From Hydrogenophaga sp. BPS33 (GTDB taxonomy: Bacteria > Pseudomonadota > Gammaproteobacteria > Burkholderiales > Burkholderiaceae_C): DNA of 64,000 bases. Shown here piece by piece: positions 9,908 to 51,444 of the stretch. The notes below the pieces were generated by a model. It was given only the letters and a program-made list of their open reading frames with translations. It was not told where the DNA came from and searched no databases. The stretch spans positions 6,253,501 to 6,317,500 of the forward strand of contig NZ_CP044549.1 of assembly GCF_009859475.1 (NCBI RefSeq). The letters are read 5' to 3'. The position numbers and the translations under genes are program-made. The stretch's first letter is position 1, and every line of letters begins with the position of its first letter.

Positions 9908-9929
9908 GCTTAACTCAATACCAGCGGTC

Positions 9930-14583: not shown

Positions 14584-15768
14584 ATGAAACCTACTCTGCT
14601 CGTTCTGGCCCTGTCGGCCTCTCTATCCTTGCTGTCGGCCACGGCCCACGCCCAAGCGGCCGCGCCCGCGACTGCCACGGCCCCGGCTGCGGCGACCTAC
14701 GCCACCGTCGCCACGCACTACGCGGCCCTGGTACACGCCAACTACAGCGACACGCTCGCCGCCGCGCAGGAGATGCAGACGGCCATCAAAGCCTTCGTGG
14801 CCGCGCCCTCGGCCGACGGCTTGGCGGCCGCGCGCAAAGCCTGGCTGGGCGCGCGCGAGTTTTATGGCCAGACCGAGGCGTTCCGCTTTTACGGCGGCCC
14901 GATCGACGACGACAAGGGCCCCGAGGGCCAGATCAACGCCTGGCCGCTGGACGAGTCGTACGTGGACTATGTGCAGGGCAAGCCCAAGTCGGGCCTGATC
15001 GCCAACACCAAGTTCAAGATCACCAAGACCAACCTGGCCAAGTTCAACGAGCGCGGTGGCGAGGAAAACATCAGCTCCGGCTGGCATGCCATCGAATTCC
15101 TGCTCTGGGGCCAGGACCTGAGCGAGAGCGGCCCGGGCAACCGCTCGTTCGAAGACTACGTGGACGGCAAGACCCCCAATGCCGACCGCCGCCGTCAGTT
15201 CCTGACCGTGGCGACCGAGCTGCTGGTCGACGACCTCAACTTCCTCGTCAAGGCCTGGGCGCCCGGCCAGAAAAACTACCGCGCGCGCTTCGAGAAGGGC
15301 GGCAAGGAATCGGTGCGCAAGATCATCGTGGGCCTGGGCTCGCTCTCGCGCGGTGAACTCTCGGGCGAGCGCATGGAAGTGGCGCTGAATTCGCAGGACC
15401 AGGAAGACGAACACTCGTGCTTCTCCGACAACACGCACCGCGACATCGTCACCAATGCCACCGGCATTCAGAACGTGTGGCTGGGTCAGTACAAGAAGCG
15501 CGACGGCAGCACCTTGCAAGGCCCGGGCATGCGCGACCTGGTCGCCGCCAAGAAGGCCGATCTGGCCGAGAAGACGACCGCGCAGATCGCCGCATCGGTG
15601 GCGGGTGCCGAATCCATTCCCGCACCGTTCGACCGCGCGCTGGCCAAGGGAGCGGCCGGCCGCCCGGCGATCGAGAAAACCGTGGCGAGCCTGGTCGCGC
15701 AGTCCAAGCTGCTGGTGGAATCGGCCACTGCGGTGGGCATCGCCAAGCTGACGTTGGTGGAACCCTGA
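14584..15768 (+). CDS. Imelysin-family periplasmic protein (EfeM/IrpA-like)
   Basis: The 394-residue precursor starts with a signal peptide (LLVLALSASLSLLSATAHAQ). The imelysin fold is marked by GWHAIEFLLWG near residue 175, the family's GxHxxE motif, and by helices such as AARKAWLGAREFYGQTEAFRF, shown here in part. Family members are iron-regulated periplasmic or surface proteins (IrpA, the EfeO/EfeM peptidase-like domain) proposed to bind iron or assist iron uptake; proteolysis was claimed for some and is uncertain. It is the first gene of a four-gene operon and has a Fur-box-like element just upstream. Spacing to the next gene is about 270 bases and contains two repeats. Confidence 0.88.
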   Translation: MKPTLLVLALSASLSLLSATAHAQAAAPATATAPAAATYATVATHYAALVHANYSDTLAAAQEMQTAIKAFVAAPSADGLAAARKAWLGAREFYGQTEAFRFYGGPIDDDKGPEGQINAWPLDESYVDYVQGKPKSGLIANTKFKITKTNLAKFNERGGEENISSGWHAIEFLLWGQDLSESGPGNRSFEDYVDGKTPNADRRRQFLTVATELLVDDLNFLVKAWAPGQKNYRARFEKGGKESVRKIIVGLGSLSRGELSGERMEVALNSQDQEDEHSCFSDNTHRDIVTNATGIQNVWLGQYKKRDGSTLQGPGMRDLVAAKKADLAEKTTAQIAASVAGAESIPAPFDRALAKGAAGRPAIEKTVASLVAQSKLLVESATAVGIAKLTLVEP

Positions 15769-15771
15769 ACA

Positions 15772-15890
15772 CCCCCCTGCGCCGCTGACGCGGCTTCCCC
15801 CCTCTGTTGCGCGCCTTCGGCGCTTCGAGGGGGGACGACACCTTGGGCCGGCGGAGCCGTCCCTTGGTGTCTGTGGATGAAGGCACGTCT
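15772..15890 (+). repeat. Dispersed two-hairpin intergenic repeat, copy 2
   Basis: Begins three bases after an imelysin stop. Order of elements: GCCGCTGACGCGGC hairpin; CCCCCTC...GAGGGGG enclosing GCGCCTTCGGCGC; CCTTGGGCCGGCGGAGCC; TGTGGATGAAGGCACG. The same order, inverted, is present at 19708 and 51327. Confidence 0.85.
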
Positions 15891-15910
15891 CGCCGGAGCC
15901 GTGCCTTCAC

Positions 15911-15947
15911 TCCCTCGCCCCTCTGGGGAGAGGGCTGGGGTGAGGGG
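15911..15947. repeat. REP-like palindromic repeat
   Basis: Outer arms CCCTCGCCCC and GGGGTGAGGG pair over ten positions (one G-T), and an inner CTCT/AGAG pair forms the tip. This type of CCCTC-CCC palindrome is widely dispersed in proteobacterial genomes. It ends just before a possible GTG start of the di-heme protein, so its G-run could be mistaken for a ribosome-binding site. Confidence 0.7.
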
Positions 15948-16036
15948 CACGCGTGAAGAGGTTTCCCTTTTTGCAATGCCCGCACCTTTGGTTTGCTGTT
16001 TTCATTGCTGCACTTGCATCTTCTGTAGTCCTCACC

Positions 16037-17530
16037 ATGTCGCTCTTTCCCAAAGCCACGCGCTTCGCGCTCGCCATGGGGGTCCTGCTCGGCGGCGCGA
16101 CCGCCTTTGTCCTGCACGCCGACGAAGCACCTGACCCACTCGGTGAGAAGACCGGTGGCGCGACCACGGTCTACGCCACGGGCAAGAACGCGTTTTCCTT
16201 TCCACTGGCCAATCTGGACGACCCGGGGCGCACGCGCTTCGTGATCGGCAATTCTTTCTTCAAGCGCAACTGGGTCGAGGCACCGGCGTCGACCACCGCG
16301 CGCGATGGGCTGGGGCCGCACTTCATCGCGCGCGCCTGCGCCGGCTGCCATGTGTTGGACGGCCGGGGCGAACCGCCCGAGTGGAAGAACACGCTCGGCC
16401 CCGAACCCGAAGGCACGGTGGCCCTGCTGATTCGCCTTTCTGTCGCCGGCACACCCGACCCCAAGGCAGGCGTGCGGCCCGACCCGGTGTACGGCGACCA
16501 GTTCAACAACGCGGCGATCCAGGGCGTGAAGCCCGAGGGCCGGGTGGAGATCCGCTCGCGGCCGATCCACGGCCGCTTCACCGACGGCACGCGTTACACG
16601 CTGCGGCAGCCGCTCTACAAGCTCACCGACCTGGCCTACGGCCCGTTCGCACCGGGCCTGATGGTGAGCCCGCGCATCGCGCCGCAGCTCGCCGGCGTGG
16701 GCCTGCTGGAAGCGATTCCCGAGGCGGAAATTCTGCGCAATGCGCGCGATCAGGCGGCCGCGCCCGGCCCCATCAAAGGCCAGGCCAACCGGGTGTGGGA
16801 CGTGTTCGCGCAGGGTGAACGCGTGGGCCGCTTCGGCTGGAAGGCCAACGTGGCCACGCTGGCGCACCAGACCGCCGGAGCCTTCCATGGCGACATGGGC
16901 ATCACTTCCAGCGTGCACCCGCTAGAGACCTGCACGCCAGCGCAGAAGGACTGCCTGGCCGCGCCCCATGGCGGCGGCCGCACCAACGGCAGCGCGGGCA
17001 TCGTGCCGGCCTCGATGGCGGTGGCACAGAAACCCGAGATCGACGACGACACGTTCGGCCAGGTGGTCTTCTACCAGGCCACGCTGGCGCCCGCGGCGCG
17101 GCGCAACGTGAAGGACGCGCAGGTGCTGCGTGGCCAGGCGCTGTTCGCACAGGCGCAATGCGCGGCGTGCCACCGCCCGAGCTACGTCACCGCAGAAGGA
17201 CCGTTCCCCAAACTGACCAGCCCGGCGCTCAAAGGCCAGCGCATCTGGCCCTACACCGACCTGTTGCTGCACGACATGGGGCCCGACCTCGCCGACGGCC
17301 GCCCCGACTTTCTCGCCAACGGCCAGCAGTGGAAAACACCACCGCTGTGGGGCATCGGCCTGATCAGAGACGTCAACGGCCACACCCGCCTGATGCACGA
17401 CGGGCGTGCCAACGGGGTGCTTGAAGCCATCCTCTGGCACGGCGGAGAAGCGCAGGCATCGAAAGAACAGGTGCTCAAGATGAACCGCCGCGACCGGCAG
17501 TCGCTGGTGCTCTTTGTGGAGTCGCTATGA
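16037..17530 (+). CDS. Di-heme c-type cytochrome, DUF1111 (thiol-oxidoreductase-like)
   Basis: Periplasmic protein with two heme-attachment motifs, CAGCH near residue 100 and CAACH near residue 380. The 497-residue product starts with an export signal (FALAMGVLLGGATAFVLHA) and ends RQSLVLFVESL. Layout and the RARACAGCHVLDGRGE-type context (seen here as ARACAGCHVLDGRGE) match DUF1111, di-heme peroxidase-like proteins that co-occur with imelysins. The start is uncertain: ATG 16037 gives a plain signal peptide, while GTG 15953 adds 28 residues but its G-rich upstream is a REP-like repeat. The stop overlaps the next start (ATGA). It may pass electrons during iron reduction or oxidation; this is inference. 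Confidence 0.85.
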   Translation: MSLFPKATRFALAMGVLLGGATAFVLHADEAPDPLGEKTGGATTVYATGKNAFSFPLANLDDPGRTRFVIGNSFFKRNWVEAPASTTARDGLGPHFIARACAGCHVLDGRGEPPEWKNTLGPEPEGTVALLIRLSVAGTPDPKAGVRPDPVYGDQFNNAAIQGVKPEGRVEIRSRPIHGRFTDGTRYTLRQPLYKLTDLAYGPFAPGLMVSPRIAPQLAGVGLLEAIPEAEILRNARDQAAAPGPIKGQANRVWDVFAQGERVGRFGWKANVATLAHQTAGAFHGDMGITSSVHPLETCTPAQKDCLAAPHGGGRTNGSAGIVPASMAVAQKPEIDDDTFGQVVFYQATLAPAARRNVKDAQVLRGQALFAQAQCAACHRPSYVTAEGPFPKLTSPALKGQRIWPYTDLLLHDMGPDLADGRPDFLANGQQWKTPPLWGIGLIRDVNGHTRLMHDGRANGVLEAILWHGGEAQASKEQVLKMNRRDRQSLVLFVESL

Positions 17531-18600
17531 AAGTTGCCCCTATCCCTCTGGCGCTGGCCTGGACGCTGACCGCCTGCGGCATGGCCACGGCGCAAAACGC
17601 CCCTGTCGTGGCCGCGCCGTACTACTCGGCCGAGCAGGCGATGCAAGGGCTCTACACCCACCATCTGCCGCCGCTTGCGAAGGCCTTCCAGAGCGAAGCC
17701 GATCGGCTGGTGAGCGCCGCGGACCAGCTCTGCCAAGGCCAGGCGACCTTGTCAGCGTTGCGTGCGCAATGGCAGACCACGCTGGAGCGTTGGGAAGCCC
17801 TGTCCACGCCCGCCGTCGGCCCCCTGGTGACGCGGCGCTCGCAGCGCCAGATCGACTTCTGGCCCACGCGGCCGGACCTGCTGCGACGCTCAATGGAAAA
17901 AGCCCCCGCCACGCTGGCCGACATGGAGCGCGTGGGCACGCCGGCCAAGGGTTTTCCGGCGCTGGACCTGTTGTTGCAGCAATGGTCCCGCAAGGCGCCG
18001 ACGCCCGATGCCTGCCGCTACGGCGGATTGATCGCGCGGGGCATCGCCGCCGAAGCACGTGCGCTGCAGAACGAGCTCGGCCCATGGGCCACGAAGGCGT
18101 GGGAAGACGAACCCGAGGTCACCACCGCTTCGCTCGCCGAATGGGTCAACCAGTGGCTCGCGGGTCTGGAGCGGCTGCGCTGGGCGCACATCGAGAAACC
18201 CATCACCACGCACCAGACCACGGGCAACGCGGCCAAGGGCACGCCGGTGCCGTACGCACGGCTGGACCGCGAGAGCAACCTGCGCGACTGGCGCGCGCAA
18301 TGGCAAAGCCTGCGCACCCAAGGCCGCCTGCCACCCGGCGCGCCGCCACCGCCGGCGGGCCAGGCGCTGGTGCCAATGGAAGCGCTGCTGATGGGCCGTG
18401 GGCACCTGGCGCTGGCGCAGAAGTGGGGCCAGGCGCTGGGCCAGGTGAATGCCGGCATGGAGAAGCTCACGCCGCGTTCCAGTGAACGCGAGTTGCTGGC
18501 ACTCGCGAAATCGATGAAGGCGGTGACGGTGCTGTTCCAGAACGAGGTGGCGGCGGCGCTGGATGTGCCTTTGGGGTTTTCCGACGCGGACGGGGACTGA
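17527..18600 (+). CDS. Second imelysin-family protein
   Basis: The 357-residue precursor overlaps the previous stop by four bases. It has a signal sequence with a cysteine at residue 17 (WTLTACGMATAQN) that could be a lipobox-like site, although TAC-G is only an approximate match. The body is helical and imelysin-like: LRAQWQTTLERWEALSTPAVG, in part, the FPALDLLLQ segment near 142 in the place of GxHxxE, and a C-terminal LAKSMKAVTVLFQNEV. The canonical GxHxxE histidine is replaced in this copy (GFPALD), so it resembles the divergent second imelysin of such operons. Likely periplasmic; acts with the first imelysin and the di-heme protein. Confidence 0.82.
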   Translation: MKVAPIPLALAWTLTACGMATAQNAPVVAAPYYSAEQAMQGLYTHHLPPLAKAFQSEADRLVSAADQLCQGQATLSALRAQWQTTLERWEALSTPAVGPLVTRRSQRQIDFWPTRPDLLRRSMEKAPATLADMERVGTPAKGFPALDLLLQQWSRKAPTPDACRYGGLIARGIAAEARALQNELGPWATKAWEDEPEVTTASLAEWVNQWLAGLERLRWAHIEKPITTHQTTGNAAKGTPVPYARLDRESNLRDWRAQWQSLRTQGRLPPGAPPPPAGQALVPMEALLMGRGHLALAQKWGQALGQVNAGMEKLTPRSSERELLALAKSMKAVTVLFQNEVAAALDVPLGFSDADGD

Positions 18601-18603
18601 AAA

Positions 18604-19698
18604 ATGAACACCTCTGCACGCCTCTCACGCAGGCAATGGCTGCTGAGCGCAGCAGCGCTGGGCGTCACGCCTGTGTGGGGAAATTCACCCCATGCGGCGC
18701 GCCTGCTTTCGGCCTGGCAGACGTCGGATGAACACCGCATCGGTGTGATCGGTGTAAACGGCGCGCGCTGGTCGGTGCAGCGCTCGCTGGCGGTGCCCAC
18801 GCGCGCGCACGGTCTGCTGCACGAAGCCGATGGCAGCGTGCTGGCCACGGCGCGCCGACCGGGCGATTGGCTGCTGCGCTGGCACCCCCAAAGCGGGCGC
18901 ACGCAGTGGCACTGGATCGACGACGACCGCCGCTTCAACGGCCATGCCATCGCCAGTGCGGATGGCAACACGCTGTGGACGACCGAGACCGATCTGGCCA
19001 ACGCCCAAGGACGCCTCGGCGTGCGCGATGGCGCTTCGCTGGAAAAAACGGCCGAGTGGGCGACGCACGGCATGGACCCGCACGAGCTCATCGTGCTGCC
19101 CCGGCAGGTGGGCGAGATGGCGGCCGGCAGCCTGATCGTGGCCAATGGCGGCATTCCCACGCTGCCCGAGACCGGGCGCAGCAAGCGCCAGCTCGACCGC
19201 ATGGACGCCTCGCTGGTCGCGCTGGATCCGCGCGATGGCCGCCTGCTCGGTCAGTGGCGCCTTGAAGACCCGTTCCTCAGCATCCGCCACCTGGCGTGGG
19301 ACCCCGCTTCATCGACCGTGGGCATCGCGCTGCAGGCCGAGCACCCCGATGCCGATGCCCGGCAGCGTGCGCCGGTGTTCGCGGTGTGGAACGGTGAGCG
19401 CCTGCAAGCCTCGGTGAATCAACCGACCGTCAAGGGCTACGGCGGCGACATCTGCGCTTTGCCGCAGGGCGGCTTCGTGGTGAGCTGCCCGCGCGCGAAC
19501 ACGTTGGCCTTGTTCGGTAGCGATGCGCGGTGGCAACAGAACGTGGCGCATCGGCAGGCCTATGCCTTGGCCACCGCACAAGGACACTGGTGGGCCAGCG
19601 GTGCCGAAGGCGTGTGGTGCGCCCCTGAAGGCATCGACGCCAAGGCCACCACGCGCACGGGGCGTCTGCAGATCGACAACCACTGGGTGGCCGTGTAG
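18604..19698 (+). CDS. DUF1513 beta-propeller-like exported protein
   Basis: The 364-residue product starts three bases after the second imelysin. It has a short export signal with RRQW (SRRQWLLSAAALGVTPVWG), similar to but not a perfect twin-arginine motif. Repeated units such as HGLLHEADGSVLATARRPGDW, quoted in part, NGHAIASADGNTLWTTE, GMDPHELIVLP and SIRHLAWDP suggest a seven-bladed propeller. DUF1513 proteins close imelysin/DUF1111 operons in many proteobacteria (the PA4370 region of Pseudomonas aeruginosa has this gene set). The role is not known; conserved histidines might bind metal. A dispersed repeat follows the stop. Confidence 0.82.
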   Translation: MNTSARLSRRQWLLSAAALGVTPVWGNSPHAARLLSAWQTSDEHRIGVIGVNGARWSVQRSLAVPTRAHGLLHEADGSVLATARRPGDWLLRWHPQSGRTQWHWIDDDRRFNGHAIASADGNTLWTTETDLANAQGRLGVRDGASLEKTAEWATHGMDPHELIVLPRQVGEMAAGSLIVANGGIPTLPETGRSKRQLDRMDASLVALDPRDGRLLGQWRLEDPFLSIRHLAWDPASSTVGIALQAEHPDADARQRAPVFAVWNGERLQASVNQPTVKGYGGDICALPQGGFVVSCPRANTLALFGSDARWQQNVAHRQAYALATAQGHWWASGAEGVWCAPEGIDAKATTRTGRLQIDNHWVAV

Positions 19699-19707
19699 CT
19701 GCGGGTC

Positions 19708-19839
19708 CGTCTCCGGCGAGCGTGCCTCAACCCAGAGGCATCGAGGGACGGCTTTGCCGGCCCAAGATGCCGTCCCCCGCTCGAAGCGCCGCAGGCGCGC
19801 AACAGAGGGGGGAAGCCGCGTCAGCGGCGCAGGGGGGAG
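19708..19839 (-). repeat. Dispersed two-hairpin intergenic repeat, copy 3
   Basis: Same element as at 15772, inverted: GTGCCT...GAGGCATCGAGGGACGGC, GCCGGCCCAAGATGCCGTC, a G/C-run stem enclosing GCGCCGCAGGCGC, then GCCGCGTCAGCGGC. It fills the space between the DUF1513 stop and the ridA stop (convergent genes), so it may serve as a bidirectional terminator. Confidence 0.85.
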
Positions 19840-20223
19840 CTACATCCTCCAGGCCACGGCGTCGATTTCGACTTTCCAGCCCGGCTGGGCCAAGCCTGCA
19901 ACGAACAACAAGGTCGATGCAGGCCGCGCATCGCCGAGGTAACGTTTGCGCACCGCGCCGTACACCGGCAGATCCGCCGGATCGATGAGGAAGTGCTGCA
20001 CCTTCACCAGGTGTTCCACGCCCATGTCGGCGTCGGCCAGCACCGCCAGCAGGTTGCGCCAAGCCGCATCGGCTTGTGCCTCGACCCCATCGGCCAGGCT
20101 GCCGTCCGGCAGCACGCCGACCTGGCCCGCGATGTGCAGCCATCGGCCACCGGCGGGTGCGCAAATGCCGTTCGAATAAGCGCCCAGCGGAGCGGCGATG
20201 GTGATGGGGTTGTGTACTTTCAT
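19840..20223 (-). CDS. RidA family (YjgF/YER057c/UK114) protein
   Basis: The 127-residue product is full length for RidA enzymes, which hydrolyse reactive enamine/imine intermediates to ketones and ammonia. Visible features: PLGAYSNGICAPAGGRWLHI at the N terminus, AWRNLLAVLADADMG, VKVQHFLID, and the catalytic-type arginine in DARPASTLLFVAGL followed by VEIDAVA. ATG 20223 overlaps the upstream stop (ATGA), so it is translationally coupled to the 431-residue gene. It closes a nine-gene minus-strand operon, where it may clear an imine made by the diiron proteins (inference). Subfamily is not archetypal RidA: the usual glycine-rich start differs. Confidence 0.88.
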   Translation of the reverse strand: MKVHNPITIAAPLGAYSNGICAPAGGRWLHIAGQVGVLPDGSLADGVEAQADAAWRNLLAVLADADMGVEHLVKVQHFLIDPADLPVYGAVRKRYLGDARPASTLLFVAGLAQPGWKVEIDAVAWRM

Positions 20224-21515
20224 ACGGCGGTCGGGGTGGTGGTGCGTTGAGAAGGGTGGCGTATGGCGCTCGCCACCAGGGCGTCGAGCGAACCGTTGGC
20301 CCATGCGCGGTACAGCGCCTCGCTGGTGAACAGGGGCAATTGGAGGCGCTCGCATGCGGCGCACAAGGCCGCCGGCGGGCCTGGGCGCTGGTCGAGCGGC
20401 AGATGGTTGTCGGCCAGGTAGACCAACAGGCAGGGCGCGGCCATCCCGGCCCGTTCGTCTTCCACCTGGTGGCGCAAGCGCGCGGCTTCCATGGCCACGG
20501 TCTGTGCGTCGGCCTCGGTGCCGGCGGTGATCGCGATCAAGCTCACGGCCTGGTTCGCGCGGCTAAGCACGACAGCGCGCCGGCTGACCGTGACGCGCTC
20601 CTGCTGCCACCCACCGCCCGCGCAGGCGCGCGCAAAGTCGGCCAGTGCCCATGTGGGTTCGCCCGCGCACAAGCTCCAGCCCCACTCGAGCTGGCGGCGG
20701 CGCGCGGCGGCCGCGTCCCGGCGTTCCTGCAGGCGCAGCAGTTCGGTCTCGATCTGCTGCTGCTCCAACCGGCAATCCCGCAGCACCGGCGGGAGGCAGA
20801 TCGTGTCGGCAAGAAGGGGGGATGCGTGCTCATGGCGCAAGGACACGACGAGCCGCGCCAGCGCCTCCATCAAGACCCGTTGCTCCACCGCGCCGGCATC
20901 GGGCCGCAGCGCGGGCAGCAGCAGCACGCCACCGGGGTGGCGACGGTCGAAGCGCGCCACGCAGGCCTGCCCGACATGGGCGATCGGCATGCCAGCGCCG
21001 CCGTCGAGTGCAAAGGTCGGGCGCAACAGCGCGCGGGTGTCGTCGAAGAAGGCGGCGAAGGGTGCGCCAAAATCCGTGATCCGGGTCTCTTGCGCCAGGC
21101 CTTCAAGCGCCACGGGATCGCCCGGCAACGCTTCCAACAGGCTCAGCGGCACAGGCTCTTCCAGAGTGTGGAGCAGGAAATCAGGCGCTTCGGACACCAG
21201 AACCACCACCAGCGCGCCCTGCTGCAGCGCGGCCCCGATCGCGCGCCGCGCTTCGCGCGTGCGGTGCGCCAAGCGGTTCGACGCGGTGGGCGGCAGCACG
21301 CGCGCGCTGCGATCGCCTTCTACGTCGCGGTCCCAATGCCGCACCGTGTCGCCCAAGTCCCACACCAGCAAGTCGCAACGCACGGGCAGGTCCCGCCCGA
21401 ACGCGCATGAGGCCACGCCCTGCTCAATCGCCAGTGCGTCGACGCGGGCGATCGAGAGAAAGGGCAGGACCGCCGCAGGTTCGCCAGATGGCGTGGTACC
21501 GCGCCCAGCGGTCAT
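20220..21515 (-). CDS. Uncharacterised 431-residue protein of the diiron operon
   Basis: I do not recognise this family. The N-terminal 210 residues alternate beta and alpha (CDLLVWDLGDTVRHW, QQGALVVVLVSEAPDFLL, GGVLLLPALRPDAGAVE), as in a Rossmann- or amidotransferase-like fold. Residues 230-275 form a likely coiled coil (LEQQQIETELLRLQERRDAA). The last 150 residues are again alpha/beta (SLIAITAGTEADAQ, CLLVYLADNHLPLDQRP, LPLFTSEALYRAW) and loosely recall degenerate restriction-endonuclease-like folds. No signal peptide or membrane segment. Both ends overlap neighbours by four bases, so it is made in step with the esterase and RidA. No catalytic motif can be named with confidence. Confidence 0.75.
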   Translation of the reverse strand: MTAGRGTTPSGEPAAVLPFLSIARVDALAIEQGVASCAFGRDLPVRCDLLVWDLGDTVRHWDRDVEGDRSARVLPPTASNRLAHRTREARRAIGAALQQGALVVVLVSEAPDFLLHTLEEPVPLSLLEALPGDPVALEGLAQETRITDFGAPFAAFFDDTRALLRPTFALDGGAGMPIAHVGQACVARFDRRHPGGVLLLPALRPDAGAVEQRVLMEALARLVVSLRHEHASPLLADTICLPPVLRDCRLEQQQIETELLRLQERRDAAAARRRQLEWGWSLCAGEPTWALADFARACAGGGWQQERVTVSRRAVVLSRANQAVSLIAITAGTEADAQTVAMEAARLRHQVEDERAGMAAPCLLVYLADNHLPLDQRPGPPAALCAACERLQLPLFTSEALYRAWANGSLDALVASAIRHPSQRTTTPTAV

Positions 21516-22534
21516 GCCGACAACGCCTGCGGTTCGACCGCCAGCACACGGTCCAGGAAACGGCCCATGCTCTCGAAAGCCTGGCGCGGCGCTTCCATCA
21601 TGCGGCCGTAGGTGAGGAAGCCGTGCACCGCGCCCCGGTAGACCTCCAGTTCGGCGTGGCCGCCGTAGTCCTGCACGGCCTGGTGCAGCCGCAGGGAGTC
21701 GTCGAACAGCACGTCGAGTTCGCAGGCGCCGATCAGCATCGGCGGCAGCTTGCGCAGGCCGGCGAACATCGGGAACGCCTGCGGCACGGACTCGCCCAGA
21801 CGCCCACCGAGGTAGTGGTGCTCGTAGCGCACCATGGCGGCCTTGGACATGCCGAAGCGGCCATCGGCATAGGCTTCGTAAGAGCGCGTGGGGCGCACCG
21901 GCAGGTAGGCGCCGTACAACAGCAGAAGGGCATCGGGCATGCGCTCACCCGCGTCGCGCGCGCGCATCGCTTCCAGCAGCGCGAGGTTGGCGCCCGCCGA
22001 GTCGCCCGCGAGCACCCAGCGCGTGCCGGGCGGCCGCTCCCGGCGCAGCGCGGCCAGCACGCGCGTGAGGTCGTGGAAAGCGGCCGGGAACGGGTGCTCG
22101 GGAGCGAGCGAGTAATCCAGTGCGAGCACAGGGTGGCGCGTCGCATCGGCCAGGCCGCGCACGATCGCGTCGTGCGTCTCGATCGCGCCCACGCACCAGC
22201 CTCCGCCGTGCAGGTAGATGATCTCGGTGTCTTCGCGCGCGTCGATCGGCAGGTTGCGCCGCATGCGCACGCTGCGTCCCTCGATCACCATCTGCTGTTC
22301 TTCGGCACTGGCCATGCGCGGCGCCGTCTCGATCCACCACTTGCGCTCTTCGATCAGGGCGCGGCGCGCGTCCTCGAACGAAATCTCGTAGCGGCTGGGC
22401 TGACCCTTCTTGCGCTCGGTCAGGATGTCGAGCACGCGCTGCATCTCAGGCGTCGGCTGGGGCCGGTACGCCGGGGACGCATTGTCAAAAACATCGCCGC
22501 CATCGCTGGGCGGCTGCAGATCGGTCAATGTCAC
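21512..22534 (-). CDS. HSL-family alpha/beta hydrolase (esterase/carboxylesterase)
   Basis: The 340-residue product has the hormone-sensitive-lipase oxyanion motif HGGGW near 112 and the nucleophile motif GDSAG near 180. The acid lies in CELDVLFDDS and the histidine in AVHGFLTYG near 307. These enzymes hydrolyse small esters or amides. It starts at GTG 22534 with GGAGAG a few bases upstream, and its stop overlaps the next gene. No signal peptide, so cytoplasmic. In this operon it probably hydrolyses the imported compound or an ester product of it; the true substrate is unknown. Confidence 0.88.
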   Translation of the reverse strand: MTLTDLQPPSDGGDVFDNASPAYRPQPTPEMQRVLDILTERKKGQPSRYEISFEDARRALIEERKWWIETAPRMASAEEQQMVIEGRSVRMRRNLPIDAREDTEIIYLHGGGWCVGAIETHDAIVRGLADATRHPVLALDYSLAPEHPFPAAFHDLTRVLAALRRERPPGTRWVLAGDSAGANLALLEAMRARDAGERMPDALLLLYGAYLPVRPTRSYEAYADGRFGMSKAAMVRYEHHYLGGRLGESVPQAFPMFAGLRKLPPMLIGACELDVLFDDSLRLHQAVQDYGGHAELEVYRGAVHGFLTYGRMMEAPRQAFESMGRFLDRVLAVEPQALSA

Positions 22535-22571
22535 GCCTCTCTCCGTTCTTCAATGGGTCTTTCGCGCGGAC

Positions 22572-23504
22572 TCACACGAGCCCCAGGCGGTCATGCCGCA
22601 TAAGGGGCAGTTCGATGTCGAGTTCGCCCAGCCGTTGGCGCGAGCGCGTGAGCCAGTCCAGCAACACCGCTTCTTCGTCGGCCGCGACGGCGGCTCCCAG
22701 GCCGGCTTGCGCGAGCAAGCGGCGATCCTCCCTGTCCTGCGCCGTGTCGATCTCGGTGGCCAGCGTGGGCACGTGGTAGCCCTTCCACAGGACCTCGCCG
22801 ATCCAGCGGCCGATGTGCTCGGCCACGGCCGTGCGGGCGGTAGCGTCCATCTGCGCGGCGCGGTTCTCCAGGTACAACCAGCCGAAGGTGGCGTGGCGTT
22901 GCTTGGCCTGGGTGATCTTCTCCATCACCGTGGCCACCACGGGATGGCGGCTGTGCTGGCGGTACAGCGTGCTCAGGTCGAACTCCAGTCCGTCTTCCAT
23001 CGCGCAGTGCACCGCCACGTAGGGGTCGAGCGGCTGGCGGCCGTCGAGTGCAAGCCGATAGCGGTGCTGGTTGAACACCGCTTCCCACGCGGGATTCACA
23101 GGGCGATCGAGGTAGCCGCCGAGGTTCTCGGCGATCTGGTGAAAGCACTCGATATGCCAGGCCTCTTCGGTGTTGCGCACGGTCAGGAAGTACTTGGGAT
23201 CGGCCTCGCGCCCCATTTCCAGGCAGAAGCGCACCAGCAACGCGGGCGTCTCGGCCAGACCGGTGTATTCGGTCCAGGCGCGACGGCTCCAGACACGGCG
23301 CGCGGCGTCTCGCGTGGCTTCGTCGAAGGCGCTGGCGCGCAGGTCGTCCCAGACCACGTCGCGATAAGGATCCCAGCGCCCGACCTTGGCCTGCTCGTAG
23401 AGCGAGCGGATCGAATCGATGGTGGTGCTCAAACCCAGCGGAAAACGCTGCTCCACCAGGATGGCGGTGGTGCCGGTGCCAGGCGACGCTTGCAATGCGG
23501 TCAT
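22572..23504 (-). CDS. Ferritin-like diiron-type protein, subunit lacking one metal-ligand Glu
   Basis: The 310-residue product is a paralogue of the next upstream gene. Shared landmarks are RRAWTEYTGLAETPALL, TEEAWHIECFHQIAENLGGY, CAMEDGLEFD and QRHATFGW. In ferritin-like diiron oxygenases the ligands come as Glu, ExxH, Glu, ExxH. Here the first ExxH (E114/H117) and E170 are present, but the second motif reads K201-Q-R-H204, so the glutamate is a lysine. It may be a partner subunit of the complete homologue, or bind a different metal. Start ATG 23504 follows the upstream stop by three bases. Relatives are often labelled iron-containing redox enzyme family. Confidence 0.8.
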   Translation of the reverse strand: MTALQASPGTGTTAILVEQRFPLGLSTTIDSIRSLYEQAKVGRWDPYRDVVWDDLRASAFDEATRDAARRVWSRRAWTEYTGLAETPALLVRFCLEMGREADPKYFLTVRNTEEAWHIECFHQIAENLGGYLDRPVNPAWEAVFNQHRYRLALDGRQPLDPYVAVHCAMEDGLEFDLSTLYRQHSRHPVVATVMEKITQAKQRHATFGWLYLENRAAQMDATARTAVAEHIGRWIGEVLWKGYHVPTLATEIDTAQDREDRRLLAQAGLGAAVAADEEAVLLDWLTRSRQRLGELDIELPLMRHDRLGLV

Positions 23505-23507
23505 CCT

Positions 23508-24443
23508 TCAGATCTCCGTGTCGTACTTGTGGTGGCGGAACATCGGGATGTCGATGCCCCAGGCGTTCTTCATCTCCGCGCGGATGCGCGCCAGCGATGC
23601 AGCGAAGATGGGTTTCTCCAGTTCCTCGACGATGGCGCCCAGGCCGGCTTCCCAGGCCAGGCGGTCGTGCGCCATTTCGACTTCGGTGGAGGGTGACGAA
23701 GGCGCCAGCCACGCCGAGTGGTAGCCGTTGAGCTCGACCTTCTCGATCATGGTGATCACCGCCTGGCGCATGTTCTCGATCTCATCGGCTGTCATGTGCG
23801 GCAGGCGGCTCTGGATGAAGTGCCAGCCGAACGCGCAGTGGCGTACCTCGTCGCGCATGATGAATTTGCAGATCTGGCGCGCCACCGGGTTGGGCGTGAT
23901 CTCCACGAGGTGACGGAACACGTCGAACGCGATCTCCTCGGCCGCGCACACCAACGCGGCAATGGTGCTCTCCAGGCTGGCATCGGGATCGAGCGCAGCG
24001 CGGCGCACGCCGTGCGTGGCCACAGCGCCCTGGTACTCGGTCTTGGCCGGCGCTTCGAAATAGCCACCGAGTTTCTCGGCCATGCGGTAGCAGGCCTCGG
24101 CATGGCGCGACTCTTCTTGCGAACGCAGCGTGAAGTAGAGCTGCATGTCGGGCGCGAACTTGCCCACGCAATAGCGAATCTGCAGCGTCGGGCTCTCGGA
24201 GATCGCGCCGTACTCGCTCCAGGCGCGCCGGCTCCAGTAGTAACGCGCGCCCAAGCGCTGCTCTTCGGTGTAGTCCTCGGGGCGCAGGGCGTCCCAGTCC
24301 ACATCGGTAGCGGGGTTCCACTGGTTGTGCGTGGCGTTGCGCAGCAGGTCGCGGATGCGCGGGATGCGCACGCCCAGGTCGAGCGGGAAACGCTGCTCGG
24401 GACGGTCCAGGATGGTGGGTACTTCGAGATACGCGGTGCTCAT
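23508..24443 (-). CDS. Ferritin-like diiron oxygenase-type protein with full ligand set
   Basis: The 311-residue product has the expected four-helix ligand pattern: E83 in SESPTLQIRY, E111-S-R-H114, E169 in CAAEEIAFDVF and E199-V-R-H202 in RDEVRHCAFGW. This spacing fits diiron proteins of the ribonucleotide-reductase/AurF-like group, which activate O2 for hydroxylation, N-oxygenation or C-C cleavage. No membrane segment. ATG 24443 was chosen; a 12-residue longer start would overlap the upstream stop. Immediately downstream is its degenerate paralogue, and upstream is the ABC transporter operon. It is the probable catalytic heart of the locus; substrate unknown. Confidence 0.84.
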   Translation of the reverse strand: MSTAYLEVPTILDRPEQRFPLDLGVRIPRIRDLLRNATHNQWNPATDVDWDALRPEDYTEEQRLGARYYWSRRAWSEYGAISESPTLQIRYCVGKFAPDMQLYFTLRSQEESRHAEACYRMAEKLGGYFEAPAKTEYQGAVATHGVRRAALDPDASLESTIAALVCAAEEIAFDVFRHLVEITPNPVARQICKFIMRDEVRHCAFGWHFIQSRLPHMTADEIENMRQAVITMIEKVELNGYHSAWLAPSSPSTEVEMAHDRLAWEAGLGAIVEELEKPIFAASLARIRAEMKNAWGIDIPMFRHHKYDTEI

Positions 24444-24471
24444 GAATGGCTTTCGGGGATGGCGGTGGACA

Positions 24472-25557
24472 TCAGGCACTGCGCCGCAGCTCGGCCGCGA
24501 CGGCGTCGCGCACGTTCGGCGGTGTGGCGCTCATGAGCCACTCCTTGATCTTGATTTTTTCCGGGTAGATCTTGAGTTCGTGGAAGCTGTCGGCCAGGCG
24601 TTGCACTTCGTTGGCGGTGTTCTCGTCGACCGCTTTGAGGCTGCCCGCGCCGGAGTACGAGAGCAGGCGGTTCTTGGCCAGGTAGAGGTACACGTCGTGC
24701 TCCATCGGATTGTTGCCGAAGCCGCCGAGCTTCTGGAACTGGCCCACCACCTCTTCGGGCTTGGCCTCGAGCTGGCGCTGCGCGTCGCGCACGTTGCGCA
24801 GCAGGATGGCGACAGCTTCGGGATGGTCCTTGGCGAACTGTTCGCGCGCGACGAAGAAGCCGTAGTCGTAGGTCTTCACGCCGGGCAGCATGGTGGCGTT
24901 GTAGCGGCGGCGCGCCAACTCCATCGTGGGCTGCCACGACAGCCAGGCGTCGATGCGCTTGTTGGCGAAGGCGGCTTCCGCATCGGGCGCGGCCAGGTTC
25001 ACGTACTGGATGTCCGAGAGCTTCATGCCCGCAGCCTCGAGTGTGCGCACCAGGGCGTAGGTGCCGGTGGTACCGCGGTGGTCGGCCACGCGCTTGCCCT
25101 TGAGGTCCTGCACGCTCTTGATGCCCGAGTCGGCGTGGACCAGCAGGTAGCAGGTGTCGCTGGGCAAGGGATACACGCCCAGCGGCACCACCGGCACCTT
25201 GCCGCCCACCGCGTAGATCATGGCGGTGGAGGTGGCGAAGGAGAAGTCGATCGCGCCACCGCGAATGGCTTCAATGATGGGCAGCGTGGCGGGGAAGCCC
25301 GGGCGCCAGTCGATCTTGGCGCCCCCCAGGTCCTTCGACGGGTTCATGCCGCCGATGCCGTAGCGCAGCACGGTGCCCGGCTCGGCCTTGCCTTCGCCGA
25401 TCAACGCGTAGCGGATGGACGCGGGCATCTTGCCCTGCGCCAGGGACAGGCCGGGCACGGCGCTCAGCACGGTGCCGCCGGCGGCGGCCGTCAACAGCGA
25501 ACGGCGCGACAGCGCGCAGGACGATGGGGAGCAAACAGACGAAGACAGGCTAGACAT
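24472..25557 (-). CDS. ABC transporter substrate-binding protein, SsuA/TauA/NMT1 type
   Basis: The 361-residue precursor begins with an export signal containing SRRSLLTAAAGG, twin-arginine-like, and a signal cleavage region ending SLAQG. The ligand-binding protein fold is clear: RGGAIDFSFATSTAMIYAVG, VHADSGIKSVQDLKGKRVA, TYALVRTLEAAGMK and AFANKRIDAWLSWQPTMEL, each quoted in pieces. This family binds sulfonates, taurine, nitrate, or pyrimidine precursors. ATG 25557 is preferred because GGAG lies six bases upstream; ATG 25569 has none. It delivers the unknown substrate to the permease/ATPase pair upstream. Confidence 0.87.
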   Translation of the reverse strand: MSSLSSSVCSPSSCALSRRSLLTAAAGGTVLSAVPGLSLAQGKMPASIRYALIGEGKAEPGTVLRYGIGGMNPSKDLGGAKIDWRPGFPATLPIIEAIRGGAIDFSFATSTAMIYAVGGKVPVVPLGVYPLPSDTCYLLVHADSGIKSVQDLKGKRVADHRGTTGTYALVRTLEAAGMKLSDIQYVNLAAPDAEAAFANKRIDAWLSWQPTMELARRRYNATMLPGVKTYDYGFFVAREQFAKDHPEAVAILLRNVRDAQRQLEAKPEEVVGQFQKLGGFGNNPMEHDVYLYLAKNRLLSYSGAGSLKAVDENTANEVQRLADSFHELKIYPEKIKIKEWLMSATPPNVRDAVAAELRRSA

Positions 25558-25614
25558 CGGGAACTCCATGAAAGTGGTGAAAGAAGGCGGGGAAGGTGGT
25601 AACGGACAAAGAGC

Positions 25615-26328
25615 TCAATGGATGAGACTCTCGAGAAGCGACTCTTTCATCTTGGCGAGATGGGCGTCGCCGCGGTGGCGCGGGCGTGGCAGGTCGATGC
25701 GGATGTCTTGCAGCACGCCGCCGTCGCCGATGACGATCACGCGGTCGGACAGCACCAGGGCCTCCTCGACGTCGTGCGTGACGAGCATGACGGTGCAAGG
25801 CTTCTCCAGCCAGAGCCTCTCGAGCAGTTGCTGCGCGGTCACCCGGGTGAGCGCGTCCAGCGCGCCGAAGGGTTCGTCGAGCATCAGCCAGTCCGGGTGC
25901 TGAATCAGCGCGCGCGCTAGTGCCACGCGCTGGCGCTGGCCACCCGAGAGCTGCGAGGGCCACAGCGTTTCCTTGCCCTGCAGGCCAACGGCCTTCATGA
26001 GTGTGAGCGCGTCTTGTTCGCGGCCGTTGAGGCCCAGTTGCACGTTCTGCAACGCGGTGCGCCACGGCAGCAGGCGGTCTTCCTGGAACATCACGCGGAT
26101 GGTGGGCGGCGCGTGGTCCGCGCGCTGCCCCACAGGCGAGATCTGGCCGCGCACCGGCTTCTCCAGTTTGGAGATCAGGCGCAGCAAGGTGCTCTTGCCG
26201 GTGCCGCTGGCGCCCAGGAAGGAGACGAAGCTGCCAGGCTCGATGTCGAGATCGAGACGGTCGAACACGCGGCTGGCGCCGTAGCTGTGACCCAGGTCGC
26301 GGATCTGGAGGCCGACGACGGCGTTCAT
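25615..26328 (-). CDS. ABC transporter ATP-binding protein (SsuB/TauB type)
   Basis: The 237-residue ATPase has Walker A GASGTGKST, signature LSGGQRQRVALARAL, Walker B WLMLDEPFGALD and the switch histidine in VMLVTHD. It powers import by the adjacent permease. Start ATG 26328 overlaps the permease stop (ATGA). The substrate follows the binding protein and cannot be told from the ATPase. A longer upstream reading in this frame was discarded as it crosses the permease gene. Confidence 0.93.
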   Translation of the reverse strand: MNAVVGLQIRDLGHSYGASRVFDRLDLDIEPGSFVSFLGASGTGKSTLLRLISKLEKPVRGQISPVGQRADHAPPTIRVMFQEDRLLPWRTALQNVQLGLNGREQDALTLMKAVGLQGKETLWPSQLSGGQRQRVALARALIQHPDWLMLDEPFGALDALTRVTAQQLLERLWLEKPCTVMLVTHDVEEALVLSDRVIVIGDGGVLQDIRIDLPRPRHRGDAHLAKMKESLLESLIH

Positions 26329-27191
26329 GGTTGGGCTCCTCGGGGTTGGTAGCTGCTGTGCCAGCGAAGCACGCGCGCTTCGACCAGGCGGGTCAATTGG
26401 TCGGCCAGCAGGCCGGCGAACGAATAGATCAGGATGGCCAGGATGACGCGGTCGTTGCGCATCATTTCGCGCGCGTTCTGCGCGATGAAGCCAATGCCGT
26501 CCTGCGCGTTGATGGTCTCGGCCACCACCAGCGTGAGCCAGGCCACGCCGAGTGAGTAGCGGATGCCGGTGAGGATGGAGGGCATCGCACCCATGAGGAT
26601 GACGTCGCGGATCAGCTCCCACTGGTTCAGGCCGTAGGCGCGGCCCAGCTGGATGAGGCGCGCGTCCACGTTCTTGATGCCGTTGACCGTGTTCAGGTAC
26701 ACCGGGAACAGCGTGCCCATGGCCACGAGAATGATCTTGGGCTCTTCGCCGATGCCGAACCACGCGATCATCAAGGGCACGAGCGCGAGGTGGGGCACGA
26801 CGCGCACCATCTGCAGCGTGCGGTCGACCAGGCCTTCGGCCACGTTGGACATGCCGACCAGGAAGCCCAGCACCAGGCCGAGCGTGGCACCGATGCCGAA
26901 GCCCGCGGCGATGCGCATCAGGCTGACCCCGATGCCCTTCTGCAGCTCGCCCGTTTCCATCAAGTCGAGCGCGGCCTGCAGCACAGCGGTGGGTGCCGGC
27001 AGCGTGCCGGGCGAGACCCAGGCAAAGGTGGCCGACGCTTGCCACAGGATCAACGCACAGATCGGCACGATCCAGGGCAGCAGGTGGTGGAAGTTGAAGC
27101 GCGGCGGGCGCGCGCGTATGGCGCTGGCGGCCTGCGCGGCGGCGGACTCCAGCGGCGGGGCAACGGCGGATGAAGAGCTGGGCGATGTCAC
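26325..27191 (-). CDS. ABC transporter permease (SsuC/TauC type)
   Basis: The 288-residue membrane protein has about six helices (PWIVPICALILWQASATFAW, GFGIGATLGLVLGFLVG, LALVPLMIAWFGIGEEPKI in part) and the EAA loop VARLIQLGRAYGLNQWELIRDV-like segment, visible as GRAYGLNQWELIRD. It starts at GTG 27191 with AAGGA upstream at five bases spacing. The preceding 71 residues of the open frame are shadow sequence. It forms the channel of the importer. Confidence 0.9.
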   Translation of the reverse strand: MTSPSSSSAVAPPLESAAAQAASAIRARPPRFNFHHLLPWIVPICALILWQASATFAWVSPGTLPAPTAVLQAALDLMETGELQKGIGVSLMRIAAGFGIGATLGLVLGFLVGMSNVAEGLVDRTLQMVRVVPHLALVPLMIAWFGIGEEPKIILVAMGTLFPVYLNTVNGIKNVDARLIQLGRAYGLNQWELIRDVILMGAMPSILTGIRYSLGVAWLTLVVAETINAQDGIGFIAQNAREMMRNDRVILAILIYSFAGLLADQLTRLVEARVLRWHSSYQPRGAQP

Positions 27192-27253
27192 AGAGATTCC
27201 TTTGGAGAAGGGGTGTGAGAAAGGGCGGAAGGCGGGCCGACGAAGCGCAGTGC

Positions 27254-28123
27254 TCAGGTCGGCGCGCGGGCCATGTCGCTGGGCAGATCGGTCGTCGCGT
27301 CGTCGTTGATGTGGAATTGGCTGACGCCGCCTGCGTCCTTGGCGCCGAGGTCCACCGAGAAGCCGCAGCGCATGCGCTTGGCCGGGTAGATGGAGCGCCC
27401 ACACATCACGGGCATGTCGGTGTCGGTGTAATAGACCATCTCGCGCACCAGCAACGGGCTGTACGGATCGAGCTGCAGCATCTGCTCACCCTCCTCGCCG
27501 GCCAGAGAGGCCTCAATGCGGTTGTCGCCCCGGCGCAGCCGCACGCGGCGCTTGAGCAGGTCCAGCAGCGACTGGCTGGCCGCTTCGGAGCGCTGCATGG
27601 AGTCGCCGAAGTCGGGGTGGATGTAGCGGTAGTCGTACGACACCGGGCCGCTGGCATCGCTTCGCATGCGCTCCACCTGCAGCACCAGCGTGCCTTTGGG
27701 AATGCGCAGCATGGCCGCCACCTCGTCGCTGCAGGGCAGCATGTCAAAGCGCGCCAACGTGAGCGAAAGCGGACGGCCGCTGCGCGCCCACTGCTCGGGC
27801 AGGTTCATCGAAGGGTCGAAGGCTTCGTCAAAGCGCTCGCGGTTGACGAAAGTGCGGCTACCGCGTTGGCGCGAAAGAAAGCCTTCGCTGGACAGGCGCT
27901 GCAACGCCTGGCGCACAGTGGCGCGGCTGACGTCAAAGATGCTGCACAGCTCGCTCTCGGAATAGAAGGCATCGCTCGGGTAATCACCGCGCGCGATCAT
28001 GTCCTGCAGGCGGTGCACCACCTGCGCGTACAGCGGCAGCGGCGACATGCGGTCCAGGGAAATCGTGCGCCCGCCACTGGCCGGGCGCTTCTGAAGAACA
28101 TCGAGATCGTCGGAGGTGTTCAT
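27254..28123 (-). CDS. GntR/HutC-family transcriptional regulator
   Basis: The 289-residue product has a winged helix-turn-helix (PLYAQVVHRLQDMIARGDYP, SESELCSIFDVSRATVRQAL) and a C-terminal UTRA effector-binding domain (SYDYRYIHPDFGDSM, MVYYTDTDMPVMCGRSIYP). HutC-type regulators respond to small ligands and usually repress nearby uptake and catabolic genes. It is the first gene of the minus-strand operon, 62 bases before the permease. An imperfect palindrome lies upstream at 28149-28168. ATG 28123 was chosen since longer starts (28135, 28156) lack a ribosome-binding site and 28156 falls inside that palindrome. Confidence 0.9.
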   Translation of the reverse strand: MNTSDDLDVLQKRPASGGRTISLDRMSPLPLYAQVVHRLQDMIARGDYPSDAFYSESELCSIFDVSRATVRQALQRLSSEGFLSRQRGSRTFVNRERFDEAFDPSMNLPEQWARSGRPLSLTLARFDMLPCSDEVAAMLRIPKGTLVLQVERMRSDASGPVSYDYRYIHPDFGDSMQRSEAASQSLLDLLKRRVRLRRGDNRIEASLAGEEGEQMLQLDPYSPLLVREMVYYTDTDMPVMCGRSIYPAKRMRCGFSVDLGAKDAGGVSQFHINDDATTDLPSDMARAPT

Positions 28124-28148: not shown

Positions 28149-28168
28149 ACGTACATGTCAATATACGT
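28149..28168. promoter_or_regulatory. Candidate GntR-family operator
   Basis: ACGTACATGTCAATATACGT has arms ACGTA/TACGT and 7 of 10 symmetric positions, 26 bases upstream of the chosen regulator start. AT-rich palindromes of this type upstream of HutC/GntR genes are usual autoregulatory sites. Binding is inference. Confidence 0.45.
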
Positions 28169-51326: not shown

Positions 51327-51444
51327 AGTGCCTTCATCCAGGGGCATCAAGGGTCCGGCTCCGCCGGCCCAAGATGCCGTCTCCCCTCCAAGCGCCGAAG
51401 GCGCGCCAGAGAGGGGGGAAGCCGCGTCAGCGGCGCAGGGGGGT
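51327..51444 (-). repeat. Dispersed two-hairpin intergenic repeat, copy 4
   Basis: Inverted copy of the 15772 element: GTGCCTTCATCCAGGGGC, GGTCCGGCTCCGCCGGCCC, a CCCCTCC/GGAGGGG-type stem around GCGCCGAAGGCGC, then GCCGCGTCAGCGGC. It fills the gap between the convergent yidB-like gene and the hydrolase. Confidence 0.85.

Follow-up and report, generated by a model that had tools for sequence, protein, structure and literature searches.

Nine minus-strand genes in the window (the whole 64-kb stretch of DNA analysed) form one conserved unit, at whose centre lie two adjacent genes for related diiron-type proteins, the complete DIc and the degenerate DIa. The unit probably imports and oxidises a small molecule by means of this diiron-type pair, and oxidation of an imported substrate, as first proposed for these genes, is still their most economical reading. 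In full, we read the unit as a laterally variable operon for uptake and O2-dependent oxidative catabolism under the control of a HutC-type GntR regulator, a reading to which we give a probability of about 0.5.

Gene content and conservation of the unit

The open reading frames and their coordinates bore out the original prediction of nine genes that overlap or lie at most 62 bp apart (Table 1), and Pfam and NCBIfam searches upheld the family names given to them. Calculated from the coordinates, the intergenic gaps range from -4 to 62 bp: -4 between the Rid and 431-aa genes, -4 between 431-aa and HSL, 37 between HSL and DIa, 3 between DIa and DIc, 28 between DIc and the binding protein, 45 between binding protein and ATPase, -4 between ATPase and permease, and 62 between permease and GntR.

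Table 1. Features of the locus, with positions in the window
Feature	Position	Strand	Basis
GntR-family regulator, HutC/UTRA type	27254..28123	-	PF00392 and PF07702
ABC permease, SsuC type, GTG start	26325..27191	-	BPD_transp_1; best NCBIfam match SsuC
ABC ATPase, aliphatic-sulfonate (SsuB) type	25615..26328	-	Pfam/NCBIfam
Periplasmic binding protein, SsuA/NMT1 type	24472..25569	-	Pfam/NCBIfam; nearest solved chain by sequence 2x26
DIc, complete diiron protein, ferritin-like/R2-like	23508..24443	-	AurF Pfam marginal
DIa, degenerate diiron partner	22572..23504	-	E199 replaced; separate clade
HSL-type alpha/beta hydrolase	21512..22534	-	PF07859 (Abhydrolase_3) 164.5 bits; motifs HGGGW and GDSAG read by eye
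431-aa protein with class I glutaminase-like domain, long helix and putative PD-(D/E)XK-like domain (C-terminal part)	20220..21515	-	Model
Rid-family protein without catalytic arginine	19840..20223	-	PF01042 (Ribonuc_L-PSP) 73.4 bits; Ser at Arg105 position
Block absent from a same-genus genome	19688..28353		blastn against G038
Candidate GntR operator GTMTA-N6-TAKAC, 1 mismatch	28151..28166		Pattern match

A failure of the gene order to recur in other genomes had been named in advance as grounds for refutation. We ran this check and found the order kept, with differences in the importer and in the place of the 431-aa gene. DIc and DIa are adjacent in all ten loci compared (the window and nine further loci, from about seven lineages), and in nine of these a GntR relative and a binding protein precede the pair and the same kind of Rid protein follows it. 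This recurrence of the core in nine further loci rules out chance adjacency. In L036, we found no match to a binding protein or GntR regulator in the 3.5 kb upstream of the pair, and the ORF preceding the pair had no NCBIfam or Pfam match at E <= 1e-5. G230 and G327 each carry a lone diiron gene, 34% like DIc, and the other parts are absent nearby; G265 has neither Rid nor hydrolase. The distribution is scattered and block-like: blastn showed that a genome of the same genus (G038) lacks an 8.67-kb block and is collinear with the window on both sides of it, as far as 19687 and from 28354 onwards. Among the 20 of 48 direct families listed (25 of 43 inverted pairs listed), none is a clear direct repeat flanking the block.

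The regulator carries both GntR and UTRA domains (Pfam), as in HutC, and missed the HutC equivalog cut-off (102 versus 220 bits; NCBIfam). The candidate operator is the sole match in 64 kb to a pattern derived post hoc from Achromobacter loci, with 0.13 matches expected and at least one found in 11 of 100 shuffles.

For the importer, the best NCBIfam match of the permease was SsuC (268.8 bits, cut-off 347), while the ATPase matched the aliphatic-sulfonate type (263.6 bits, cut-off 395) and the binding protein the NMT1/SsuA type (143.1 bits, cut-off 163.5); the curated cut-offs for SsuA, SsuB and SsuC of the SsuABC sulfonate importer were thus all missed. The importer type also varies, being Ssu-type in the window and represented by a Liv-type binding protein in eight of the nine other loci. 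This swap removes the predicted sulfonate-, nitrate- or pyrimidine-type importer from the system as such: because the importer differs between loci, it is the enzymes that define the system, and because the importer is not part of what is conserved, its class says little about the substrate. The names of solved relatives of one Liv-type binding protein were mostly generic and gave no ligand. Exchange of Ssu- and Liv-type importers on one enzyme core nevertheless yields two unrelated binding proteins that should share the same or a similar ligand, and such a pairing is a practical route towards the substrate.

The diiron pair and its companion proteins

DIc barely passes the AurF Pfam (PF11583; 30.0 bits, cut-off 29.6), and DIa falls under that cut-off at 12.4 bits. 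Compared by sequence with solved structures, DIc gave weak matches (18 at E <= 10, best 0.0012), and its profile gave six, the best of which (4.2e-5) was a designed helix bundle. The DIc model is an R2-like bundle to which R2lox, a protein with a Mn/Fe cofactor and a Tyr-Val ether cross-link, and VlmB, an azoxy synthase that forms an azoxy (N-N) bond, tied as nearest, with 12-16% identity among the top-ranked structures; the fold match carries no information on the reaction. Six putative metal ligands of DIc are kept in 60 of 60 aligned relatives, and their arrangement (E, ExxH, E, ExxH) on the modelled helical bundle is consistent with an R2-like diiron site. In DIa, ligand E199 is replaced in all eight sequences (Lys in seven, Tyr in one). 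DIa and DIc are 29-34% identical, and DIa forms a separate clade in the tree (support 0.993). Judged by sequence, the pair looks like a single enzyme plus a degenerate partner. The predicted combination of a complete and an altered protein stands; the idea of two oxidases is not supported. Many diiron monooxygenases require an electron-transfer partner; neither a reductase nor a ferredoxin turned up in the ORFs that we read from the window, L031, L032, L038, L042 and L054. A 2Fe-2S protein adjoins a distant plasmid relative.

The Rid protein scores well above its Pfam cut-off (27.3 bits) and has the conserved Glu, but none of the nine Rid proteins of the module has Arg at the Arg105 position, where six, the window's among them, have Ser and three Ala. 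Imine-deaminating Rid proteins (RidA, Rid1-3 and RutC) need this Arg (PMC4433059 and PMC8113886, partial text), Ser occupies the site in about 10% of RidA-subfamily proteins (PMC8113886, partial text), and the arginine-less Rid4 to Rid7 have been termed 'mysterious' (PMC4433059). We compared and set aside 2-aminomuconate deaminase, which keeps the Arg (PMC6742747, partial text). Because Ser replaces the catalytic Arg, the reactive-imine removal assigned to this protein by the original prediction is doubtful, and identification as a plain imine deaminase (RidA) is weakened. The purpose of Rid proteins without the catalytic arginine becomes testable through this operon.

Relatives of the HSL hydrolase occur in L038 (40%) and L054 (42%). 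A second hydrolase (HGGYWR) is kept in eight of the ten loci, the window and L042 being the exceptions; NCBIfam places it closest to a lipase family, under cut-off, and among 28 solved structures kynurenine formamidase 4e11 ranked third (E 2.6e-17), after 9n8r (Lipase 1) and 2pbl. The 431-aa protein has no Pfam match at E 0.1 and no NCBIfam match at E 0.01, and its model shows a long helix together with two domains, one glutaminase-like and the other, in the C-terminal part, possibly of nuclease-like fold. It recurs in eight of ten loci, L038 and L036 lacking it. The window protein found no tblastn match in L031-L035 at E <= 1e-5, direct blastp against its Liv-locus namesakes gave E values from 1e-14 to 0.97, and their kinship is firm only by profile comparison of the window-type and Liv-type sets. 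A Pfam search of set A5 (n = 10) returned three weak families, each matched by a single member of the set (E 0.02, 0.034 and 1). A role in sensing or scaffolding would be a guess.

Proposed function and alternatives

In the preferred reading, the periplasmic protein would capture a small, probably nitrogen-bearing organic molecule for import by the ABC transporter, after which DIc and the degenerate DIa, as a putative metal-containing heterodimer, would oxidise it with O2. The alpha/beta hydrolase, whose motifs are present, may then cut the product at an amide or ester bond, and the Rid protein may act on or bind the released intermediate; with the catalytic arginine absent, a role as classical imine deaminase is improbable. 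Site conservation and gene pairing were observed behind the oxidation step. We counted against this reading the lack of a visible reductase, the arginine-less Rid and the parts missing in some loci.

Unlikely, though the best placed of the alternatives, is ring opening of an N-heterocycle, in which DIc/DIa and O2 would produce an N-formyl or N-acyl enamine for the hydrolase to deacylate and Rid to deaminate. Kynurenine formamidase 4e11 among the solved relatives of the second hydrolase fits this scheme, but lipase/esterase entries are closer, the best NCBIfam family, under cut-off, is a lipase one, and the window has the HSL enzyme only. Precedents are the 4-hydroxypyridine pathway with its alpha/beta-hydrolase deformylase (PMC7356986, partial text) and the Rut pathway (PMC8113886, partial text), and a Rid6 protein of a nicotine cluster has enamine removal as its predicted task (PMC7688666, partial text), whereas the Rid here lacks Arg. 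Dioxygenase-type ring cleavage would account for the reductase missing from the unit, although the titles and abstract openings listed by our searches of the open-licence literature showed no diiron ring-cleaving enzyme of such kind. A bolder form, which we consider less likely than either this scheme or the N-oxygenation discussed next, makes DIc/DIa a new enzyme class, a heterodimeric R2-like diiron dioxygenase able to open a nitrogen heterocycle with no reductase dedicated to it, and gives the arginine-less Rid a catalytic part there; if true, it would supply the first defined catalytic role for the arginine-less Rid subfamily travelling with DIc/DIa.

Rather improbable is N-oxygenation of an amine by an AurF/VlmB-type enzyme, with hydroxylamine, oxime or nitroso products passing to the downstream enzymes. 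The AurF/CmlI/DnfA site includes a third His, which precedes the last ligand Glu by four residues (DnfA His209/Glu213; PMC9478400, partial text), but all 60 aligned DIc relatives have Ile or Val at position 195, which weakens an AurF-type N-oxygenase identity, and VlmB ties with R2lox in the structure comparison. Destruction of a toxic compound instead of use of a nutrient would suit the scattered blocks and the absence of central-metabolism enzymes from the window unit, yet a dedicated importer accompanies the pair in nine of ten loci, which runs counter to the needs of a resistance unit, and we regard this role as improbable.

The block is flanked by imelysin, di-heme peroxidase and DUF1513 genes and, by reading, heme-uptake genes. 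In G038 and no fewer than nine other loci of the genus, these flanking genes cluster with the operon absent, so adjacency to iron-uptake genes says little, and the site lacking the block weakens membership of an iron-uptake locus. A small biosynthetic operon, for example for a siderophore-like or signalling metabolite, could draw on these neighbours but is very improbable given their independence of the operon and an importer and hydrolases that suit catabolism better.

Comparison with known systems

RutA/F is a flavin system, as opposed to the diiron pair here, and the RutG importer is not an ABC system; Pfam and NCBIfam found no RutA-type oxygenase among the nine genes. Like our unit, the Rut uracil pathway unites an importer, a ring-attacking oxygenase, a hydrolase and a Rid protein in one operon, but RutC keeps the Arg that the window Rid lacks (PMC8113886, partial text). 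In the kpi pathway for 4-hydroxypyridine, an oxygenolytic step precedes an alpha/beta hydrolase whose proposed substrate is an N-formyl intermediate; the pathway uses an amidohydrolase-family dioxygenase in contrast to the diiron pair, and PMC7356986 does not mention RidA. AurF, CmlI and DnfA have the broad Pfam PF11583 in common with DIc, at a marginal score, but have the extra His ligand missing in DIc, and the DnfA gene, unlike our unit, is accompanied by genes for a reductase and a glutamine amidotransferase (PMC9478400, partial text). Besides this DnfA paper and the nicotine paper PMC7688666, a paper on riboflavin was compared and set aside (PMC12746152, partial text). We saw no operon of this kind in the titles and abstract openings listed by our searches of the open-licence literature.

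Phenylacetyl-CoA epoxidase resembles DIc/DIa in joining a catalytic ferritin-like diiron subunit, PaaA, to a related structural subunit, PaaC (PMC4498308, partial text), and DIa, predicted to have the same fold as DIc and an incomplete metal site, is likewise encoded beside it. PaaA and PaaC are 17% identical (PMC4498308, partial text), versus 29-34% for DIa and DIc, and the DIc model lies nearest not to these subunits but to R2lox and VlmB; PaaB, the reductase PaaE and a CoA ligase are absent from the nine genes. In the alignments, one member of this uncharacterised enzyme pair lacks part of the putative metal site, and the role of an R2-like diiron protein with a metal-site-deficient sister becomes testable from one small operon.

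Architecture of the operon across ten loci

All nine genes of the minus-strand operon lie where the original prediction had placed them. Family scans identified a GntR/UTRA regulator, SsuC-, SsuB- and SsuA-type importer parts (all three under curated cut-offs), an HSL-type alpha/beta hydrolase and a Rid protein. The complete diiron protein, DIc, scored slightly over the AurF Pfam cut-off and its degenerate partner, DIa, under it; the 431-aa protein had zero matches in these scans.

We compared ten loci (the window, L031-L036, L038, L042 and L054), which represent about seven independent lineages because four are from Achromobacter. The expectation that gene order would be kept elsewhere held for DIc and DIa, side by side in 10/10 loci, and for GntR plus binding protein upstream of the pair and Rid downstream (each 9/10), and failed for importer class and the position of the 431-aa gene, which vary. 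The sole exception on both sides is L036, a 6.3-kb contig stopping ~0.2 kb past the hydrolase, with no GntR or binding-protein match in its 3.5 kb upstream. The binding protein is Ssu-type in the window only and Liv-type in eight other loci, with Liv permeases and ATPases downstream in L031, L032, L038, L042 and L054, the loci where ORFs were read. The 431-aa family is present in 8/10 loci, within the operon in the window and divergent beside GntR in the remaining seven carriers; L038 and L036 had no match in this comparison. A second alpha/beta hydrolase (HGGYWR/HGGFWR-type) occurs in eight loci, being absent from the window and L042, and an HSL-type hydrolase adjoins Rid in three (window, L038, L054), with a partial match (36%) on the opposite side in L042. 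L054 (genome G649) holds all enzyme parts in one locus.

A perfect 16-bp palindrome, a candidate operator, lies upstream of GntR in all four Achromobacter loci. The pattern GTMTA-N6-TAKAC, derived from it post hoc, had a single match in the 64-kb window at up to one mismatch, upstream of GntR (0.13 expected; at least one match in 11/100 shuffles), and it matched once in L031 and once in L042, in both cases at the GntR start region; L038 and L054 had none.

Coordinates of the features discussed
Sequence	Positions	Feature
Window	14584-19698	run of genes for imelysin, di-heme peroxidase, another imelysin and DUF1513
Window	15771-15792, 19817-19838, 51423-51444	22-bp GC-rich repeat, three copies
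Window	28151-28166	GTMTA-N6-TAKAC match
L037 (own genome, contig 1 4639800-4659700)	10023-12240	distant diiron gene, then arginine-less-clade Rid and alpha/beta hydrolase
L040 (G002)	9921-11559	diiron-like ORF, shorter than others, then NMT1-type binding-protein-like gene
L043 (Variovorax sp. RA8 plasmid 2)	7935-9987	distant diiron relative adjoining 2Fe-2S protein, CoA-type enzymes and Liv importer

Presence of the block and rarity of DIc

By blastn, the same-genus genome G038 is collinear with the window up to 19687 and again from 28354, with 48 bases opposite 8.67 kb. The neighbouring DUF1513 gene had 42 matches in 39/67 same-genus genomes, and 30 loci were retrieved, including our own; among the 29 others, with 1.5-kb flanks, a gene from beyond the block was found at no fewer than 10 and a Rid query matched none. 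The operon is a real, conserved unit of solid architecture, gained or lost as a block, and its gain in this genome seems more likely than many losses. GC content is 67.5% in the block versus 66.7% in the window, and composition therefore gives no sign of foreign origin. The imelysin, di-heme peroxidase and DUF1513 genes resemble an iron-uptake block. The 22-bp repeat has three copies in the window (0.01 expected), one of them directly after the operon's last gene.

A search of genome contigs with DIc reduced 64 pattern matches to six confirmed relatives (Verticiella sediminum, four Achromobacter species and one alphaproteobacterial MAG). Among plasmids, three records matched: one from Paraburkholderia (62%) and two others (24-25%). 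DIc matched 19/147 relatives' whole genomes (E <= 1e-3), strongly only its own (100%) and G089 (67%). Six of 399 genomes of the order matched (E <= 1e-20): the same two strongly, then three congeneric genomes (34-35%) and a sixth (26%). Two of 399 family genomes (E <= 1e-30; our own and G649) and 1/398 phylum genomes (E <= 1e-15; our own) matched. With so few strong matches at these levels, the DIc orthologue is rare in the sampled genomes. An alignment of DIc, DIa and one member of the more distant DIx subfamily matched 1112 of 7999 scored database proteins (E <= 1e-10); the truncated names visible for the 120 listed were ferritin-like, rubrerythrin, hypothetical protein and, once, 'P-aminobenzoate N-oxygenase AurF', with no tested function seen among them.

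Rid proteins, other diiron loci and the type of operon

Eight Rid proteins encoded with the diiron pair are 47-88% alike mutually, versus 27-37% to three other Rid proteins of the own genome. That genome has 18 Rid-family matches, 17 above the Pfam cut-off. Eight of these besides the window's Rid were compared and four matched, including one close relative (54.5% identical) in L037, where it adjoins the sole further own-genome diiron match at E <= 1e-3. The catalytic arginine is missing in 9/9 aligned module Rid proteins (Ser in six, Ala in three; L033 and L035 left out). For Rid proteins without it, PMC8113886 describes enamine deaminase activity as undetectable, and PMC4433059 says likewise of imine hydrolysis and puts Ser there in ~10% of RidA-subfamily proteins.

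At the four DIx loci (L037, L039 of G038, L057 of G183 and L071 of G265), Rid adjoins in 2/4, an alpha/beta hydrolase lies close by in 3/4 and a tripartite-type binding protein, read from translations, is present in 4/4. The L037 genes also adjoin a LysR gene. G230 and G327 each carry a lone diiron gene (34% to DIc), and the sequence around it matched neither Rid nor a hydrolase nor a partner. The L043 relative possibly belongs to a reductase-coupled branch of the family.

The operon is built around an uncharacterised diiron pair, and we infer that its chemistry is catabolic. It falls within the importer-oxygenase-hydrolase-Rid type as a variant whose gene make-up is new, with no novelty claimed for its chemistry.
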